Source: Verrucomicrobia bacterium TMED44 (GTDB taxonomy: Bacteria > Verrucomicrobiota > Verrucomicrobiia > Opitutales > Seribacteraceae). Taken from it: DNA of 16,667 nt. This document shows, in pieces, positions 1,649 to 13,261 of this stretch. The notes beneath the pieces are model-generated. The model saw only the letters and a program-made list of their open reading frames with translations, was not told the DNA's origin and did no database searches. The DNA is taken from contig NHCX01000131.1 of assembly GCA_002168015.1 (NCBI GenBank), positions 2,574 through 19,240 on the forward strand, in the 5' to 3' direction. Within the stretch, counting starts at the first letter, position 1; each line of letters begins with the position of its first letter. The position numbers and the translations under genes are program-made.

Positions 1649-2770
1649 TCAGGAGGATAGGATTCTTATGACTTCAGAAGAAGAGAGATGATGCCCCACA
1701 AGTGGTTGAGATTCGTTTTCCTGCGATTGTTGCCAAGTTGCAAAGAGAGAGCCATCCTCTAGGGAAGTCGCTGAAGTATAGCGACTGCACCCAGTTCCTT
1801 TGGGGGAAATAAATGAAGGGAAATTCACTGAAATCTTATGAAGTTCAGGGAATGCATGGTCCCAGCCCCAAGCAAGCCCTCCAAGTTCCTCACAAGAATA
1901 ACCGCGAGGTCTTTTAGCTGCTTTAGGATTTTGGTCAAGAGGTCGGAGGCACTCTGCTCCGTCATAGAAGTATAAAGATAGTTTTGGCAAATCTGCAAAA
2001 GGCCCAACTTGGGGAACTTTCAGCCTTTCAGTTATTCTTGAACAGGCTACATCCCAACTGTTCCCCCTACTAAGAATATTTTCTGAAATCAATTGAAAAC
2101 TTTCGGAACCATTTTTTCGAGAAAGAAGACCCGTATTTGAACTGGACCATGAAAAGGGATGGTGACAGTATAAAATGATTGTTTCTCCATGTTCACCGTG
2201 TAAAGCCACAGGGTCTTTGTAATGGAGAGTGGATCCTTTTTCACTTCGAGCGACTGTTCTCATTTGAGAGAGGTCAAATGAATTCATTCCGTCATTTGAC
2301 TTCAGTAAATCAATGGACCAAACTCCAGTTCCAGGTTTTTGAAAGTTAATGAGAGACTTTGGGTATGGCATTTTCTTTTCTGTTGAAATAAAAAAGTCGT
2401 ACTCATTTTCGTTAGAAAGTTTTGGTAACAGGGAGACGCCTTCGATGGAAACGACTTCCTCGCTGTGTGAAAGATCTTTCTTTGATAAAGATAGGATTTT
2501 CTCAAATTTAGCATGAGGGGAATCAGCCGCAAAAACTGCACACTCTAATCCCCTTGTACCTTCTCCAGTGCCTGTACGGGCGTCTCCTTGGTTACGGAAT
2601 CGTCCACTTATAAGAATTTGGCCAGTAGGATTTAAGCATATGTTACCCCCACCAAACCAATAGCCTGATGATTGACCCAGCGGATCTATGATGAGTCTTG
2701 CAGAATGTTGGTCAAGCAGTCGTTGACAAAGTTCAGTGAGTCGAGTCTCAAGATCTTCTGGCAAGTTCAT
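1649..2770 (-). CDS. Beta-propeller, glycosidase-like protein of unknown function, coupled to cysN
   Basis: This 373-residue protein has no signal peptide and is probably cytoplasmic. I do not recognise a named family. Its layout resembles five-bladed propellers of the GH43/GH32/sialidase type. WFGGGN (38-43) is followed by ICLNPTGQILISGRFR and then the acidic IEG (109-111). KDPVAL (185-190) recalls the 'DPxV' start of a GH43 blade, and SRYTSATSLEDGSLFATW (329-346) closes the fold. Asp and Glu residues at these points could be catalytic, but I cannot assign them. The ATG shares one base with the cysN stop (TAATG at 2772-2768), so translation is coupled and the gene belongs to the PAPS operon. 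A role on a sulfated or soon-to-be-sulfated glycan is a guess from this context. Confidence 0.7.
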   Translation of the reverse strand: MNLPEDLETRLTELCQRLLDQHSARLIIDPLGQSSGYWFGGGNICLNPTGQILISGRFRNQGDARTGTGEGTRGLECAVFAADSPHAKFEKILSLSKKDLSHSEEVVSIEGVSLLPKLSNENEYDFFISTEKKMPYPKSLINFQKPGTGVWSIDLLKSNDGMNSFDLSQMRTVARSEKGSTLHYKDPVALHGEHGETIILYCHHPFSWSSSNTGLLSRKNGSESFQLISENILSRGNSWDVACSRITERLKVPQVGPFADLPKLSLYFYDGAECLRPLDQNPKAAKRPRGYSCEELGGLAWGWDHAFPELHKISVNFPSFISPKGTGCSRYTSATSLEDGSLFATWQQSQENESQPLVGHHLSSSEVIRILSS

Positions 2771-7597: not shown

Positions 7598-8479
7598 TTA
7601 AGTTGTAAGGAATGAAGTGATGGTTCGCTCGCAATATTCAAATTCATCCTCCAAAAGATAATGTCCTGCATTGTTAATCTCATGAACAGTTAGGTTTGGT
7701 AAACGCTTTTTCCATTCCCGTAGAAAACCTCCGTGAAAACAAAAATCTTTCATGCCCCAACACGCCATGGTTGGTATATGATTAAGTTTTGATATGCACT
7801 GATCGGTTTTCAGGAGATAAGATAAGGATGGATGATTGTTTTCAAGGGGAATATCTTTAACAAATCTCCAAACAGCGATCCGGTCCCTCCAATTTTGATA
7901 GGGAAATAAAAAGCCTGATTTAATTGTTTTGGATAATTTTTTATTGGTAGCCATCCAGGTTGCAGGTCCTGCAAAGCCATTTAGGTAACGAACAAAAAAT
8001 TCTCCTATGATAGGTAACCGGCAAAAACGGATGCGCTTGGGCACATCCTTTGAACTAAAAGCAGCAGTATTAAGGAGAACCAACTTATTGATTTTCTTAA
8101 AATTATTCCGAAAAGCGGATAACCCAATCGCTCCACCCCAGTCATGAACTACAAGGTTGAATTTTTCGATTTGCAGGTCTTTTAGGAGATCAACGAGATT
8201 TTCGCTATGCCCGCGGAGGTCATATGTAAAATTACTCAAATCGGGTTTGTCTGATAATCCACAACCTAAATGATCTGGTGCAATGCATCTGAACTCCTCG
8301 GAAAGAGAAAGAATTAATTTTCGATAGAAAAATGACCAAGTTGGGTTCCCATGAAGGAAAATTGTGGGCAAGGAAGTTTTATTACCTTCATCAATATAGT
8401 TAATCTTAAACCCATCTTTTTGAGTGAAGAAGTTTTGAGTGAAAGGATATTCGTGTGAAATCTCCGGGGTAAGCTGCAT
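7598..8479 (-). CDS. oleB: OleB-like alpha/beta hydrolase (haloalkane dehalogenase-type fold)
   Basis: OleB in known ole systems decarboxylates a cis-beta-lactone to a long-chain cis-olefin. This 293-residue protein has the fold's oxyanion motif HGNPTW (43-48) and nucleophile Asp113 in VVHDWGGAIG. Acid Asp245 lies in WGMKDFCF and His273 in NNAGHYLLED. The aspartate nucleophile is shared by haloalkane dehalogenases, epoxide hydrolases and OleB, so sequence alone does not settle the reaction. The neighbour does: its ATG overlaps the oleA-like stop (TAATG at 8479). There is no OleC (lactone-forming ligase) or OleD beside it, so its substrate is open. Family fold is certain; the OleB role is probable. 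Confidence 0.82.
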   Translation of the reverse strand: MQLTPEISHEYPFTQNFFTQKDGFKINYIDEGNKTSLPTIFLHGNPTWSFFYRKLILSLSEEFRCIAPDHLGCGLSDKPDLSNFTYDLRGHSENLVDLLKDLQIEKFNLVVHDWGGAIGLSAFRNNFKKINKLVLLNTAAFSSKDVPKRIRFCRLPIIGEFFVRYLNGFAGPATWMATNKKLSKTIKSGFLFPYQNWRDRIAVWRFVKDIPLENNHPSLSYLLKTDQCISKLNHIPTMACWGMKDFCFHGGFLREWKKRLPNLTVHEINNAGHYLLEDEFEYCERTITSFLTT

Positions 8480-9510
8480 TAGTTATTGAGTGCCAACATT
8501 AAACTGGATAATCCACTACCTATGCCAAGTAATGCAGATTTTTGCGTAAGTAATGCCGGGTTTTGCTCACAGGCTAAGGTGTAAGTAATTGGTAGAGAGA
8601 CTGACCCACAATTCCCTAACGATTGAAATGTGGTAAAGCTTTTTGATGGATCATAGGAAAGGGCTTTTTCAATTTCCTGCTGGTGTGCTTTCCCAACTTG
8701 ATGAGTAACGATAAGGTTTGGTTTTTCAGCACTCCAATGAGTGACTTCTAGAAATTTATTCCATGCCTTTTTAGCAACGGAGATTCCTGCATGAAGAAGT
8801 TCCTCTGAATCAGTTTGCATAACCATACCACCTACTGACTGATCACCTTCACACAGGTGATTGTGACTGGTATCTGTGGAACTTGCAAATTGAGCTAAGC
8901 GAGGTTTTTCTGAAGAGGATGAATCGTCGCATGTTATTGACCAAGCAACAGCTCCTGCTCCAATAGTGAGATTTGCAAAATAAGGCTTGATCGATTTGCG
9001 GTCCATATTAGCTCCGTTAAGAATGTCAATCGTCTGATCCACAAGAGGCTTGCCATTTTCACCTGCAACAATGATTGCTCGTTTGATTGCTCCTTGTTCA
9101 ATCATGCTACCGGCCAAAATCAGTGCATTGAGGAAGCCCAGACAGGCATTTGAAACATCAAGGATTTGGGTATTGTCACCTAACCCCATTAATTTGTGCA
9201 CATAAGATGCGGTAGCTGGTTCAAGTCGGTCGCGGCAAACAGCAGAGTGTATGAGTAAATCGACTTCTTGAGGATTGATTGTTCCATCCTGCAATAGTTT
9301 CTTACCCGCTTCGGCGGAAGCTTCTGATGCACGGTATCCATTTCCCCAGAATCTTCTTTCCTTTATTCCAGTCATCAATTCGAGACGACCAACTTGTAAA
9401 TTTACTTTCTGATAAAGGGGTTCCAACTGGGTCTCTAGTTCTTCAGAGCTGACAATTTGTGGCGGGAGTGCGTATGCCATCTTCTCAATTACTACCTTTG
9501 AGAAACTCAT
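8479..9510 (-). CDS. oleA: OleA-like thiolase, head-to-head acyl condensing enzyme
   Basis: OleA joins two fatty acyl-CoA molecules by non-decarboxylative Claisen condensation to a 2-alkyl-3-ketoacid. This 343-residue thiolase-fold protein has nucleophile Cys123 in DVSNACLGF, His270 in VTHQVGKAH and Asn300 in LGNCGSVSLP. CRDRLEPATASYVH (92-105) carries Glu97, which matches the glutamate that OleA uses as a base and that FabH lacks. The C-terminal GIGSGLSSLML is typical of the group. These features separate it from ordinary FabH. It overlaps the FabI-like gene by four bases upstream (ATGA, 9510-9507) and the oleB-like gene by one base downstream. Chain lengths and whether CoA or ACP thioesters are used cannot be read here. 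Confidence 0.85.
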   Translation of the reverse strand: MSFSKVVIEKMAYALPPQIVSSEELETQLEPLYQKVNLQVGRLELMTGIKERRFWGNGYRASEASAEAGKKLLQDGTINPQEVDLLIHSAVCRDRLEPATASYVHKLMGLGDNTQILDVSNACLGFLNALILAGSMIEQGAIKRAIIVAGENGKPLVDQTIDILNGANMDRKSIKPYFANLTIGAGAVAWSITCDDSSSSEKPRLAQFASSTDTSHNHLCEGDQSVGGMVMQTDSEELLHAGISVAKKAWNKFLEVTHWSAEKPNLIVTHQVGKAHQQEIEKALSYDPSKSFTTFQSLGNCGSVSLPITYTLACEQNPALLTQKSALLGIGSGLSSLMLALNN

Positions 9511-10319
9511 GGGTTTATTTTCATAGCTGATTCCACCACTTCTTTATCAAAATAATTGAGGCCCATTCCTGCGTCTACTACAATTCCCTGTCCATTTATG
9601 CCTGAAGAGCAGGAACTTAATAAAAATACTGCGGTGTTAGCAACCTCTTGGGTAGCCAATGCTTTCTTTCGAAATGTCAATTTCTCTGCGTAAAGATAAT
9701 TAACTAGATATCCCGGAATTCCAGCTGAAGCAGAAGTTTTAAGGGGACCTGCATTGACTGAATTAAAACGAACCGCACTAAAGGCCGAAAAAGATTTTGA
9801 TAAGTAGCGTACATTTGCTTCCAGCGAAGCTTTTACTGGTGCCATGTAGCCATAATTTTCAGCAGTGACTTCAGTTGAGGATATTCCAACAGTGACAACT
9901 GAAGCATCATTCGCCAAGGCGTTCTTAGAAACCTTGGAGAGTTGAACTAAAGAAAAGGATGATATTTGGGTGGCTTGAAGGAAATCTTTTAATTTAGTCT
10001 CGTGAAATGGCACCATACCATCCGAATAATCTGCAAATGCAACAGAATGTAAGATTCCATTAATACTTCCTTGACCCATTTCATTCATGAAGAGTTCAAG
10101 GTTATTTAAATCTTCTTCTTTTTCGAAATCGCAAATTATAATTTTTGCTTGGGGGAGGAGCTTAGAAAGTTCTTCAGATCTTTTTTTGGAGCGTACAGAA
10201 TAGATTATATGAGCCCCTTGCTCTTCAAGAGTTTTAGCCACATGCCAGGCCACGCTTTTTCGGTTAGCAAAACCGGTAATCAAAAATGTTTTGCCGCTGA
10301 CTGCCAAGAAATCATTCAT
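9507..10319 (-). CDS. FabI-like enoyl-ACP reductase (SDR family)
   Basis: FabI reduces trans-2-enoyl-ACP with NAD(P)H in the last step of fatty-acid elongation. The protein (270 residues) has the FabI form of the nucleotide motif, ITGFANRKSVAW (14-25), and LHSVAFA (90-96). Its active site is Tyr156-x6-Lys163, the FabI spacing and not the YxxxK of ordinary SDRs. NAGPLKTSASAGIPGY (189-204) matches the FabI 'GpiKT.a..gi.gf' segment. It starts in a TGATG overlap with the FabZ-like gene and ends in an ATGA overlap with oleA. This makes it dedicated to the cluster instead of, or besides, general fatty-acid synthesis. It sits where an OleD reductase might be expected, but OleD belongs to a different, longer SDR type. 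Confidence 0.85.
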   Translation of the reverse strand: MNDFLAVSGKTFLITGFANRKSVAWHVAKTLEEQGAHIIYSVRSKKRSEELSKLLPQAKIIICDFEKEEDLNNLELFMNEMGQGSINGILHSVAFADYSDGMVPFHETKLKDFLQATQISSFSLVQLSKVSKNALANDASVVTVGISSTEVTAENYGYMAPVKASLEANVRYLSKSFSAFSAVRFNSVNAGPLKTSASAGIPGYLVNYLYAEKLTFRKKALATQEVANTAVFLLSSCSSGINGQGIVVDAGMGLNYFDKEVVESAMKINP

Positions 10320-10762
10320 CAGGAACTTTGCTCACTTCTAACAAGAGCAAGTGCAAATGAAACCGTAGTGACAACCTTCCCCTTGAGGCGAATTTCACCT
10401 CGAAGGTTGTAAAATTGTCCAATTTGATCCTGAAGGAAAACTTTAATTTGAATGAGATCGCCTGGTTTAATCATCCTTTTAAACCGTGCATCCCTGATTC
10501 GGGAGAGCACGGGAGTTACGCTACTTGAATTCAGCTCATCTTGTCCAATTTTTTCAGAAAGAAAAATTGCCCCTGTCTGAAAAACAGCTTCACAGGATAA
10601 AACTCCGGGAAAAATCGGATTATTGGGGTAATGCCCTTTGAAAATGTCGAAGTCTTCGCGGACGGAAAGTTCGCAAGTAGCATCTTCTGCATTTATTTCA
10701 ATAATCCGGTCTACGAATAAAAAAGGCGGGCGATGAGGTATTCTTCGATGTATATCTTCCAT
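10319..10762 (-). CDS. FabZ-like 3-hydroxyacyl-ACP dehydratase (hot-dog fold)
   Basis: FabZ removes water from 3-hydroxyacyl-ACP to give trans-2-enoyl-ACP. The 147-residue protein opens with the typical HRPPFLFVDRI (10-20) and has the active-site segment FKGHYPNNPIFPGVLSCEA (41-59). Catalytic His44 and Glu58 are both present. A central helix AVFQTGAIFLSE follows. Length is normal. The stop overlaps the FabI-like start by one base, so dehydratase and reductase are made together and would act in sequence on one substrate. A gap of 84 bases separates it from the FAD oxidoreductase gene upstream, with no clear promoter or terminator in the gap. FabA-like isomerase activity cannot be excluded from sequence. 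Confidence 0.88.
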   Translation of the reverse strand: MEDIHRRIPHRPPFLFVDRIIEINAEDATCELSVREDFDIFKGHYPNNPIFPGVLSCEAVFQTGAIFLSEKIGQDELNSSSVTPVLSRIRDARFKRMIKPGDLIQIKVFLQDQIGQFYNLRGEIRLKGKVVTTVSFALALVRSEQSS

Positions 10763-10846
10763 TAAAAGAGAAAATTAAAACTTAAAATGATCTGATGTTT
10801 TGATGGAATTCGGATGAAGAACGCAGATGTAATGCTAGAACAAGCA

Positions 10847-12277
10847 CTATTTTCTACGAAGAAACCTGTCAATTTTATTGGCAGTTATCACACCGTAATT
10901 AATCGTCCCAAGCCAACCTGACATGATGATGCCAACGGATCCAGCATGATATAGTCCAGGTGCATGATCAGGAAGCTGAGAAGATACATCAAGACCTTCA
11001 AACTTAGTTCCAAATGAAGCACCTGATGCATGATGAGTGTAGTGTTTTATTGTTCGTGGGGTGGCTGCCTCCAAATGCTCTATTTTCGAACGTATGTCTG
11101 GTACGATTTTCTCTAAAGCTACAACAGATTCTTCGCAGAGTCTTGCTTTTTCGCTGGCATACTTTTCATCAGATAAATTTTGCCAGTCTTGCCATTTTGC
11201 ATTGATAGAAGCAACTATGCTAAAGCGTGGTTCTTTGCGATCGGGGCGTGTATCTGGGTAATAAACGGAAAAGGTGCGACTCGTTGTATTTAGACTGGTA
11301 AGTTCATCTGTTGAGAAAGAAGGAGATTCCGAAGTAAATATGAGATCACCTATGTCTGGAATGCTTATCCCTTTTTTTAAACCGATATAAACTTGGCAAG
11401 AAGTAGAATTTAGCCTGACAGACTTGGCTTGTTTCGCAAATTTTTTTGGCAACTTTGCAAGCCCGAACAGTTTTTCAATAGTGTTCTTCAGGTTTGCATT
11501 TGATAAGACTGCTCCGCACTTAATAGTTTTCCCATTTACAATAACGCCCTCTACTTGGTGGCAATCTCCTACCTGATTTGTCGTAACTGCTTCCACTAGA
11601 CATTGCCTTCTCAAATCTGCCCCATTCGATCTAAGCTCTTTGACCATTTTTTTGATCAAAGAATCCGTTCCGTCTTTAAAGGTGTAAATCCCCTTTTTCA
11701 TGAAATTAGAAAAAACAATCCCATAGGCGATAGCTGGATCTAACAATGAAGAACCGTTTGCATACGAAATTGGTTCAAGCAATAGTCTTTTAATTTCATT
11801 GCGACCTGGAAAGAATTCTTCCAGTAGATCCCCAATGGATCTTTTGTCATTGGCGAAGTAATCCATGCTCGACAGGTGTTCATAAAACTCTTCAATCTTG
11901 CTTTTGGCTATATTGAATGTCTCTTGAAGTATCTTAGTGAAATCAGAGCGATCAAAAGTAGTTTCTAAATTATATTGGGGATTGATGAACCGGATATTTT
12001 TCAACTGGACAATGGAATCGGCGATTTCTTTGGTCCAATACCTCCTGCAGGACTTAATCATTCCAACAGGAAATCCATGTAAAGAAATATCGAAGATGTG
12101 CCCCCCTGCTCTTTTGAACCATGTAGCTAATCCACCAAATTGGTAGTGGTGCTCAAGTAAGAGTACAGAGTGTCCTTGCTTAGCAAGGCAGTTTGCCCCC
12201 GTAAGTCCACCCAGACCACTTCCAATTACTACCACATCGTAATAGTCCTTGGTATCCGCTAAAGAATCTCTTGTCAC
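10847..12277 (-). CDS. CrtI/RetSat-like FAD-dependent oxidoreductase
   Basis: This 476-residue flavoprotein belongs to the phytoene desaturase / retinol saturase / amine-oxidase-like superfamily. The N-terminal dinucleotide motif [17 protein letters not shown] (15-31) and acidic [11 protein letters not shown] (39-49) bind FAD. The C-terminal [14 protein letters not shown] is the second flavin-contact motif of the CrtI group. Members desaturate, saturate or isomerise long polyene or acyl chains. The substrate here is unknown, and an acyl chain is likelier than a carotenoid because no phytoene synthase is present. The start is GTG at 12277; an in-frame TAG lies four codons upstream, so no earlier start is possible. 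It lies 45 bases after the LRR gene and 84 before the FabZ-like gene and is probably in the same operon. Confidence 0.82.
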
Positions 12278-12322: not shown

Positions 12323-13261
12323 CTACAGTTCTAGATCTTTTTGATGCTTTAAAAAGAAATCTTCCATATTTTGATTTTCTTCATCTGCTGGACCCCGTAA
12401 GGTAGGAATCTGTAGTTCCTTTAGGAATTGATACTGTTTTTTTGATAATAATTCGGGAGATAGGGACAGAGACTGTAATGGGAGGGTTGAAAGTATGCTT
12501 AAATCATTTATCTCTAAACCGATTATGTTAAGGTTTTTGATTGGTAGGTAAGCTAGGCATTCAATGCTTGATACCTTGGAACCAGGCAAGATTACGGATT
12601 CAATTGGACAATCTGATAATGGTGTTAAGTCTTGTATTTGAGTGCCACGGATCTCCAGCTTTTTTAGTTTTTTTGCAAAGCAAATTGGCTCTAAGTCAGA
12701 TATAGAAGTGCCTGACATATTGATTTCTTCGATCGGCATATTTTGTAAAGGGGATAAGTCACTCACCCTTGTTTTTAAAATATCTAGATGCGTAATCTGT
12801 TTGCCATACAGAGGGCCTAGGTTCTCAACCTCCGTATGCGGGATAATCAATCTTTTAAGGGGTAAGGATGCGCAAAACCCTAAATCATTTAATTTTGCAC
12901 CAGATAATTCTAAGATTTCAAGTGGTAGATTTTCTAAACTCTTGAAATCAACCGCTTTTGAATCTCTGACGGCCACTCTATTTAAACTAAATCCTTCCAA
13001 TTGAGTAAAAGGAATTGTACTATTTCTGGGTAGGCAAATAGAGATGACTTTTTGTTTATCTAATAACGAGAAGTCAATGCTTTGAACTTTTGAAAAATTA
13101 TACTCAATAAATGGTAACTCACACAATGTACGAAGATGGTCTTGCGGGCATTCCAATAAGAATACTCCCAACCCGCCAGGAAGAAGGTATGTATTCCCTT
13201 TAATTCCTTTTTTTGCTAAAGCGAGATCGCATGCACATTTGATATCGTTAAAAATATTCAA
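12323..13261 (-). CDS. Leucine-rich repeat protein, 21-residue repeats
   Basis: This 312-residue protein has no signal peptide or membrane helix. About eight tandem units of 21 residues run from about 112 to 270. Their consensus is LPL+.L.I.GT.I.DL.PL... (examples: MPIEEINMSGTSISDLEPI at 176-193 and KKLKKLEIRGTQIQDLTPL at 197-215). Such repeats form a curved solenoid for binding other proteins and are common in PVC bacteria, often fused to Ser/Thr kinases. Here no kinase domain is present. The N-terminal 110 residues are more divergent and hold several cysteines. The start at 13261 is TTG, as no in-frame ATG or GTG lies nearby, so the true start is uncertain. It is the first gene of the run leading to the OleAB cluster. 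Confidence 0.75.
   Translation of the reverse strand: MNIFNDIKCACDLALAKKGIKGNTYLLPGGLGVFLLECPQDHLRTLCELPFIEYNFSKVQSIDFSLLDKQKVISICLPRNSTIPFTQLEGFSLNRVAVRDSKAVDFKSLENLPLEILELSGAKLNDLGFCASLPLKRLIIPHTEVENLGPLYGKQITHLDILKTRVSDLSPLQNMPIEEINMSGTSISDLEPICFAKKLKKLEIRGTQIQDLTPLSDCPIESVILPGSKVSSIECLAYLPIKNLNIIGLEINDLSILSTLPLQSLSLSPELLSKKQYQFLKELQIPTLRGPADEENQNMEDFFLKHQKDLEL

Follow-up and report, generated by a model that had tools for sequence, protein, structure and literature searches.

A 16,667-nucleotide stretch of the draft genome of Verrucomicrobia bacterium TMED44 (contig NHCX01000131.1, positions 2,574 to 19,240; here called the window) encodes a CrtI-like flavoprotein (FAD1), FabZ, FabI, OleA and a presumed OleB in five consecutive genes that are probably part of an ole pathway which in the order Opitutales is both extended and split, with a private type II set and flavoproteins that would give OleA a special, probably unsaturated acyl chain. 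In the OleABCD pathway, as established for these families in other organisms, head-to-head condensation of two activated acyl chains by OleA is followed by a reduction (OleD), by ring closure to a beta-lactone (OleC) and by a decarboxylation that leaves an internal alkene (OleB). The system is of this known Ole kind, here extended and split, and the genes most likely serve the normal head-to-head pathway distributed over several loci, not a route that skips OleC and OleD. The link among the genes is well supported; the order of the reactions, the role of the flavoproteins and the nature of the product are proposed from sequence.

All five genes are on the minus strand: FAD1, a CrtI/CrtISO-like flavoprotein (10847..12277; 476 aa, GTG start), a FabZ-like 3-hydroxyacyl-acyl carrier protein (ACP) dehydratase (10319..10762; 147 aa), a FabI-like enoyl-ACP reductase (9507..10319; 270 aa), OleA, the head-to-head acyl condensing thiolase (8479..9510; 343 aa), and the presumed OleB, an a/b-hydrolase fold beta-lactone decarboxylase (7598..8479; 293 aa). 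FabZ and FabI overlap by 1 base (10319), FabI and OleA by 4 bases (9507-9510), and OleA and OleB by 1 base (8479), just as a preliminary description of the window had noted (overlaps of 1-4 bases); the CrtI-like oxidoreductase that it had placed just upstream is FAD1, 84 bases before FabZ by the coordinates of the open reading frames (ORFs). The five are genuine genes in a single operon-like run. FAD1, FabZ, FabI and OleB pass the general family scores of Pfam and miss all NCBIfam cut-offs.

OleA scores 386.6 bits against NCBIfam NF006720, above the cut-off of 285, and its closest solved structures are 3row, 3s21 and 3fk5 (183-184 bits), which we take to be structures of Xanthomonas OleA. Its residues E97, C123, H270 and N300 align with E117, C143, H285 and N315 of the Xanthomonas enzyme, presumably the catalytic residues of the latter. 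The hydrolase matches PF00561 (91.4 bits) and is haloalkane-dehalogenase-like by family (NCBIfam dehalogenase models at 137.3 bits or less, below their cut-offs, with no OleB model among the matches), so it is named OleB mainly for its place after oleA. FabZ matches PF07977 and reaches 99.4 bits with TIGR01750, below the cut-off of 155.15; H44 and E58, presumably its functional histidine and glutamate, are unchanged across 7 aligned relatives. FabI matches PF13561 (165.9 bits) and FabI models (175.6 bits at most, below their cut-offs), and it keeps the Tyr-x6-Lys motif, whose Y156 and K163 do not vary among 9 aligned sequences. FAD1 matches PF01593 (49.9 bits) and falls below the cut-offs of the carotenoid models TIGR02730 (101.6 of 586.9 bits), TIGR02733 (95.6 of 549.7) and TIGR02734 (70.2 of 238.1). 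The nearest structures to its predicted fold are 4rep, a gamma-carotene desaturase, and 3ka7, and it resembles CrtI and other flavin amine oxidases; it is proposed to be an acyl-chain desaturase, isomerase or reductase.

The remaining two ole genes are present in the same genome. The preliminary description had reported OleA and OleB without OleC and OleD, which holds for the window and for its contig (G000:C92; 19,240 bases) and fails for the genome, a 2.35-Mb draft of 132 contigs that is 82.5% complete: another contig carries oleC (G000:C73:14464-16119, minus strand) and a probable oleD (G000:C73:13457-14467, minus strand), which share 4 bases, and their seeming absence is an artefact of the window. 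OleC is the sole match above the NF006754 cut-off in that genome search (484.0 bits, cut-off 478), followed by two genus-type olefin beta-lactone synthetase models below their cut-offs (392.2 of 900 and 361.3 of 850 bits). The best matches of OleD are two OleD models (315.6 and 297.0 bits, cut-offs 580 each), followed by HpnA at 116.3 bits. This OleC is nearest to the OleC proteins of three genomes of the same genus (50-51% identity; the next is at 45%), which argues against C73 being a stray contig.

Conservation of the genes was examined in a class-level sample that comprised 52 Opitutales genomes, the window's own included, and 234 others (286 in all), with thresholds of E<=1e-20 for OleA and FAD1 and 1e-40 for OleC, and with at most five FAD1 candidates scored per genome. 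FAD1 was found in 51 of the 52 Opitutales genomes versus none of the 234 others, OleA in 50/52 versus 2/234, and OleC in 50/52 versus 7/234; one genome of the order (G281) is without all three. Gene order was read from 54 fetched regions (49 OleA regions of relatives within the order, two contigs of the window's own genome, two regions from outside the order and one weak match), and neighbours were counted over the 50 OleA-bearing genomes of the order, the window's own among them, where contig ends and ORF starts may depress the counts. Adjacent pairs are OleA-OleB in 43 of these, FabI-OleA in 42, FabZ-FabI in 39 and FAD1-FabZ in 27; the run FabZ-FabI-OleA-OleB occurs in 36/50 and all five genes in order in 25/50. 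The preliminary description had held that its alternative route would be contradicted if oleC and oleD lay elsewhere in the genome with normal olefin output and if the FabZ, FabI and flavoprotein genes were not conserved beside oleAB in relatives; oleC and a probable oleD were found in the genome, and the three other genes proved to be kept beside oleAB.

A scan of named contigs of the GTDB collection by FAD1 alignment confirmed at least 578 stretches, of which the best 80 were kept; the five-gene order is present in 47 of these 80 loci. Close FAD1 relatives that are named are labelled Opitutales or Opitutae bacterium, and the record titles of the 80 loci are Opitutales-type, verrucomicrobial or unspecific in all but one. 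This one (L205), from a metagenome-assembled genome titled Akkermansia muciniphila, has an Opitutales-type FAD1 with 62% identity to that of the window, and its title is probably wrong.

A second block of genes is associated with the first in relatives. In Opitutaceae-type loci, genes for a FabF-type beta-ketoacyl synthase (KS), ACP and a further CrtI-like flavoprotein (FAD2) stand before FAD1, and KS-FAD2 precedes the entire five-gene run in 12 of the best 80 named loci. Among 20 FAD2 neighbourhoods, selected from 42 genomes with a FAD2 match, KS-ACP-FAD2 is contiguous in 14, and two further regions have extra ORFs between ACP and FAD2 (L257, L258); ACP was undetected in another with KS-FAD2 (L264), and three are arranged otherwise (L262, L266, L269). 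Outside the Opitutaceae-type loci FAD2 is apart from FAD1, mostly still beside KS and ACP. It is found in all three relatives from the window's genus; the matches in G122 and G169, at only 34% identity, may be paralogues.

For co-occurrence, a second sample was drawn from 28 families of the order; its 52 genomes include 16 of the class-level sample. OleA is present in 43 of these, FAD1 in 44, OleC in 43, FabI in 42 and FAD2 in 42. All five genes are present in 38 genomes and none in 7, and OleA and OleC are both present in 41 and both absent in 7. The seven genomes without any of the five belong to families f8 (three), f63, f65, f66 and f80; because f63 and f66 also include genomes that carry the genes, a single loss cannot account for the absences. 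Fisher p values for the ten pairs of the five genes range from 1.2e-8 to 2.9e-5, and from 7.7e-6 to 4.1e-3 with one count per family and pattern. The control was FabV, a general enoyl reductase found in 49/52 (searched via PF07055, which gave a match in 0/14 control genomes); its p values are 0.058 to 0.48, or 0.088 to 1 by family and pattern, and it does not track the five genes significantly. Since FabV is so widespread, and since a further FabZ above the cut-off is found in 48/52 (at G000:C64 in the window's own genome), the FabZ and FabI of the operon look extra. Of the ten genomes without FabI, nine carry FabV. The frames with an above-cut-off FabZ are mostly long, which suggests a fusion with LpxC.

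We are fairly confident that the five-gene set and its partners serve the ole pathway, a judgement a shade firmer than that on the extended, split pathway as a whole. FabZ and FabI, with the FabF-type synthase and the ACP encoded beside FAD2 in relatives, would constitute a private type II elongation set: KS, ACP, FabZ and FabI would supply an elongation cycle bar ketoreduction, for which the ketoreductase would presumably be a shared FabG. FAD1 and FAD2 would act on the chain as desaturases, isomerases or reductases and thereby provide OleA with a special, probably unsaturated substrate. Two such chains would then be linked by OleABCD, through condensation by OleA, reduction by OleD, formation of the beta-lactone by OleC and decarboxylation by OleB to an internal alkene. 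The preliminary description had envisaged that an elongated chain is dehydrated and its enoyl form reduced; this idea survives in altered form, since FabZ and FabI are more likely to work ahead of OleA, on its acyl substrate, than on its product. That this chain is polyunsaturated is a real possibility, somewhat short of an even chance.

With the OleABCD systems of Xanthomonas, Shewanella and Micrococcus the genes share an OleA above its cut-off, an adjoining a/b-hydrolase, and oleC and a probable oleD in the genome; unlike them, they have oleAB and oleCD on separate contigs and FAD1, FabZ and FabI within the oleAB run, with FAD2, KS and ACP associated in relatives. A dedicated lipid synthase next to ole genes is also a feature of the Pfa-Ole route to hentriacontanonaene (C31:9). 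According to the available passages of two reports, the olefin of Shewanella oneidensis requires pfa gene products, and Geobacter bemidjiensis has pfa and ole genes in tandem, on which a Pfa-Ole link was speculated (PMC3098273, PMC4882568). Opitutales differ from that route in having separate type II enzymes, together with CrtI-like flavoproteins, in place of the megasynthases, and PfaD (TIGR02814, E<=1e-5) was found in 0/52 genomes of the second sample, own included, versus 3/14 named control genomes, in a search that did not extend to PfaA, PfaB or PfaC. In one of the two non-Opitutales verrucomicrobial genomes with OleA (L085, G244:C173, 9965-16843, minus strand), a gene for a 2292-aa protein of KS-KS-FabA-FabA architecture, with PfaA matches below cut-off, lies 9 bases upstream of oleA-oleB; this megasynthase gene, like one for a polyunsaturated fatty acid (PUFA) synthase, occupies the position held by FabZ and FabI in Opitutales.

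A parallel in gene families comes from fatty-acid clusters of other bacteria. C31:8 and C31:9 hydrocarbons are made by Desulfotalea psychrophila; the passages available of the report on it state that no polyketide PUFA route was found in its genome and propose a type II fatty acid synthesis (FASII) route with phytoene-desaturase-like enzymes (PMC2649909). The clusters of Desulfotalea and of Kuenenia, the latter candidates for ladderane synthesis, as described in passages of PMC2649909 and PMC4790861, encode FabF-type synthases, FabZ and CrtI-like flavoproteins, a likeness of gene families only. A CrtI-like flavoprotein with FabF, FabZ and ACP genes is seen in Opitutaceae-type loci; the window holds just FAD1 and FabZ. 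According to the same passages, the Kuenenia and Desulfotalea clusters carry radical SAM enzymes and, unlike the Opitutales loci, have their FabI elsewhere (PMC2649909, PMC4790861); no radical SAM protein was found among the family-scanned proteins of the window and of part of the neighbours in relatives, a search not made genome-wide. By this analogy it is tentatively suggested that Opitutales might make polyunsaturated head-to-head hydrocarbons of the C31:8 and C31:9 type with no PUFA synthase: KS, ACP, FabZ, FabI and two CrtI-like flavoproteins, which would desaturate or isomerise acyl-ACP, would build the polyene chain, and OleABCD would join two such chains, although we consider this somewhat less probable than polyunsaturation of the chain itself. 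Ole genes of Opitutae or Verrucomicrobia have already been published, and carbon storage has been suggested as a role of ole genes, in the portions available of these works (PMC5673642, PMC7064751 and PMC7158056 for the genes; PMC5673642 for the role). A literature search that did not take in the gene maps of the 2010 ole survey found no FabZ, FabI or CrtI-like genes described beside oleAB in Opitutales. Verrucomicrobia were reportedly tested in that survey, with C31:9 often found.

An ordinary split OleABCD, in which the Fab genes and flavoproteins would tailor or lengthen a chain that is not polyunsaturated, or boost its supply, to yield a mono- to trienic C28-C31 alkene, is the alternative that survives best, with a considerable minority chance of being correct. 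It accords with the apparently complete oleABCD of the genome, with the elongation chemistry of KS, ACP, FabZ and FabI, in which FabI removes double bonds, and with the monoalkenes, dienes and trienes that occur alongside nonaenes in Gram-negative producers, as available passages of PMC7158056 report; in plain elongation, however, the conserved FAD1 and FAD2 would have no clear job. A module devoted to some other lipid, for instance a polyene or an unsaturated fatty acid of the membrane, and tied to the ole genes by common regulation or acyl pools without feeding them, is unlikely: the separation of FAD1 from oleAB in some genomes and its position after an efflux operon in two loci would suit such a lipid, but losses are shared with both oleA and oleC, and the genes stand in one operon-like run with oleAB. 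Incidentally placed carotenoid enzymes are a quite improbable explanation of FAD1 and FAD2. Carotenoid isomerase and desaturase models are the best NCBIfam matches of both, and FAD1 is like CrtI, CrtISO and CrtD in fold, with carotenoid desaturases among its nearest structures; unlike these enzymes, it has a best score of 101.6 bits, far short of the 586.9 required, its neighbours are FASII and ole genes, and both flavoproteins co-occur with oleA and oleC. Two comparable anammox flavoproteins of the CrtI-like sort yielded no lycopene, according to passages of PMC4790861. Still less probable is a chance location beside oleAB of FabZ and FabI as general fatty-acid genes, since, for all their membership of ordinary FASII families, most genomes have FabV and another FabZ, including FabV in nine of the ten that lack FabI. 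Finally, the exit of the OleA product from the pathway without OleD and OleC, as first envisaged and in keeping with the lack of both genes on the window's contig, is hardly tenable, as oleC and oleD elsewhere in the genome make a bypass unneeded and OleC is present or absent along with OleA in most genomes of the second sample.

Several observations weigh against the extended, split pathway fed by flavoproteins. In the class-level sample G103 is without OleA and G145 without OleC; FAD1 lies inside the fetched OleA region in only 29/50 genomes and apart from oleAB in some, and 16 of the best 80 named loci have FAD1 without any detected partner gene. The pattern of the five genes is mixed in 7/52 genomes of the second sample: the window's own genome, with no FAD2 match at 82.5% completeness (of the KS-ACP-FAD2 block, the search there covered FAD2), G298 (64% complete), G300, which has no OleA and a FabI match of only 72 residues, perhaps at a contig end, and G304, G307, G315 and G316, genomes of 0.8-1.1 Mb. 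The Fisher tests are not tree-aware, and FAD1 versus the FabV control gives p near 0.05; the lowest FabV values fall on FAD1 because small genomes lack both. Because enzymes of the CrtI fold may desaturate, isomerise or saturate, the fold does not fix the direction of the FAD1 reaction. According to the passages available of PMC4790861, E. coli that expressed comparable anammox clusters made no polyunsaturated product, though the proteins went undetected in the individual operon strains.

The order-wide set that tracks oleA and oleC, without the PfaD marker, supplies named candidates for a Pfa-free route to C31:8 and C31:9; with such candidates at hand and with cultured members in the order, the question is testable by knock-out and gas chromatography-mass spectrometry. 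If the polyene route without PUFA synthase is real, the trait would span the order and explain genetically how organisms without Pfa can make C31 polyenes, and proteins usually annotated as phytoene dehydrogenase would gain a role in fatty-acid chemistry.

Among further features of these loci, a sigma-54-type response regulator is encoded close to the KS-ACP-FAD2 block in L069 (17053-18408, minus strand) and L252 (5355-6917, minus strand), which are of two different families, and such a regulator is near the block in the genus of the window; no enrichment of a sigma-54 promoter motif was found. Where FAD1 is remote from oleAB, genes for an outer-membrane efflux protein, a membrane-fusion protein and an AcrB-type pump stand ahead of it in L171 (3198-11458, plus strand), and related efflux-operon ORFs in L169 (3504-11458, plus strand); export of the product is possible. 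Elsewhere in the window, a 373-aa ORF (1649-2770, minus strand), which overlaps by 1 base with sulfate-activation-like genes, gave no match in Pfam and NCBIfam scans. The five-gene run is flanked upstream by a leucine-rich-repeat-like ORF (12323-13261, minus strand) that ends 45 bases before FAD1, an ORF detected ahead of FAD1 only in close relatives among the best 80 named loci, and downstream by a gene for a XerC-type recombinase that starts 199 bases past OleB.

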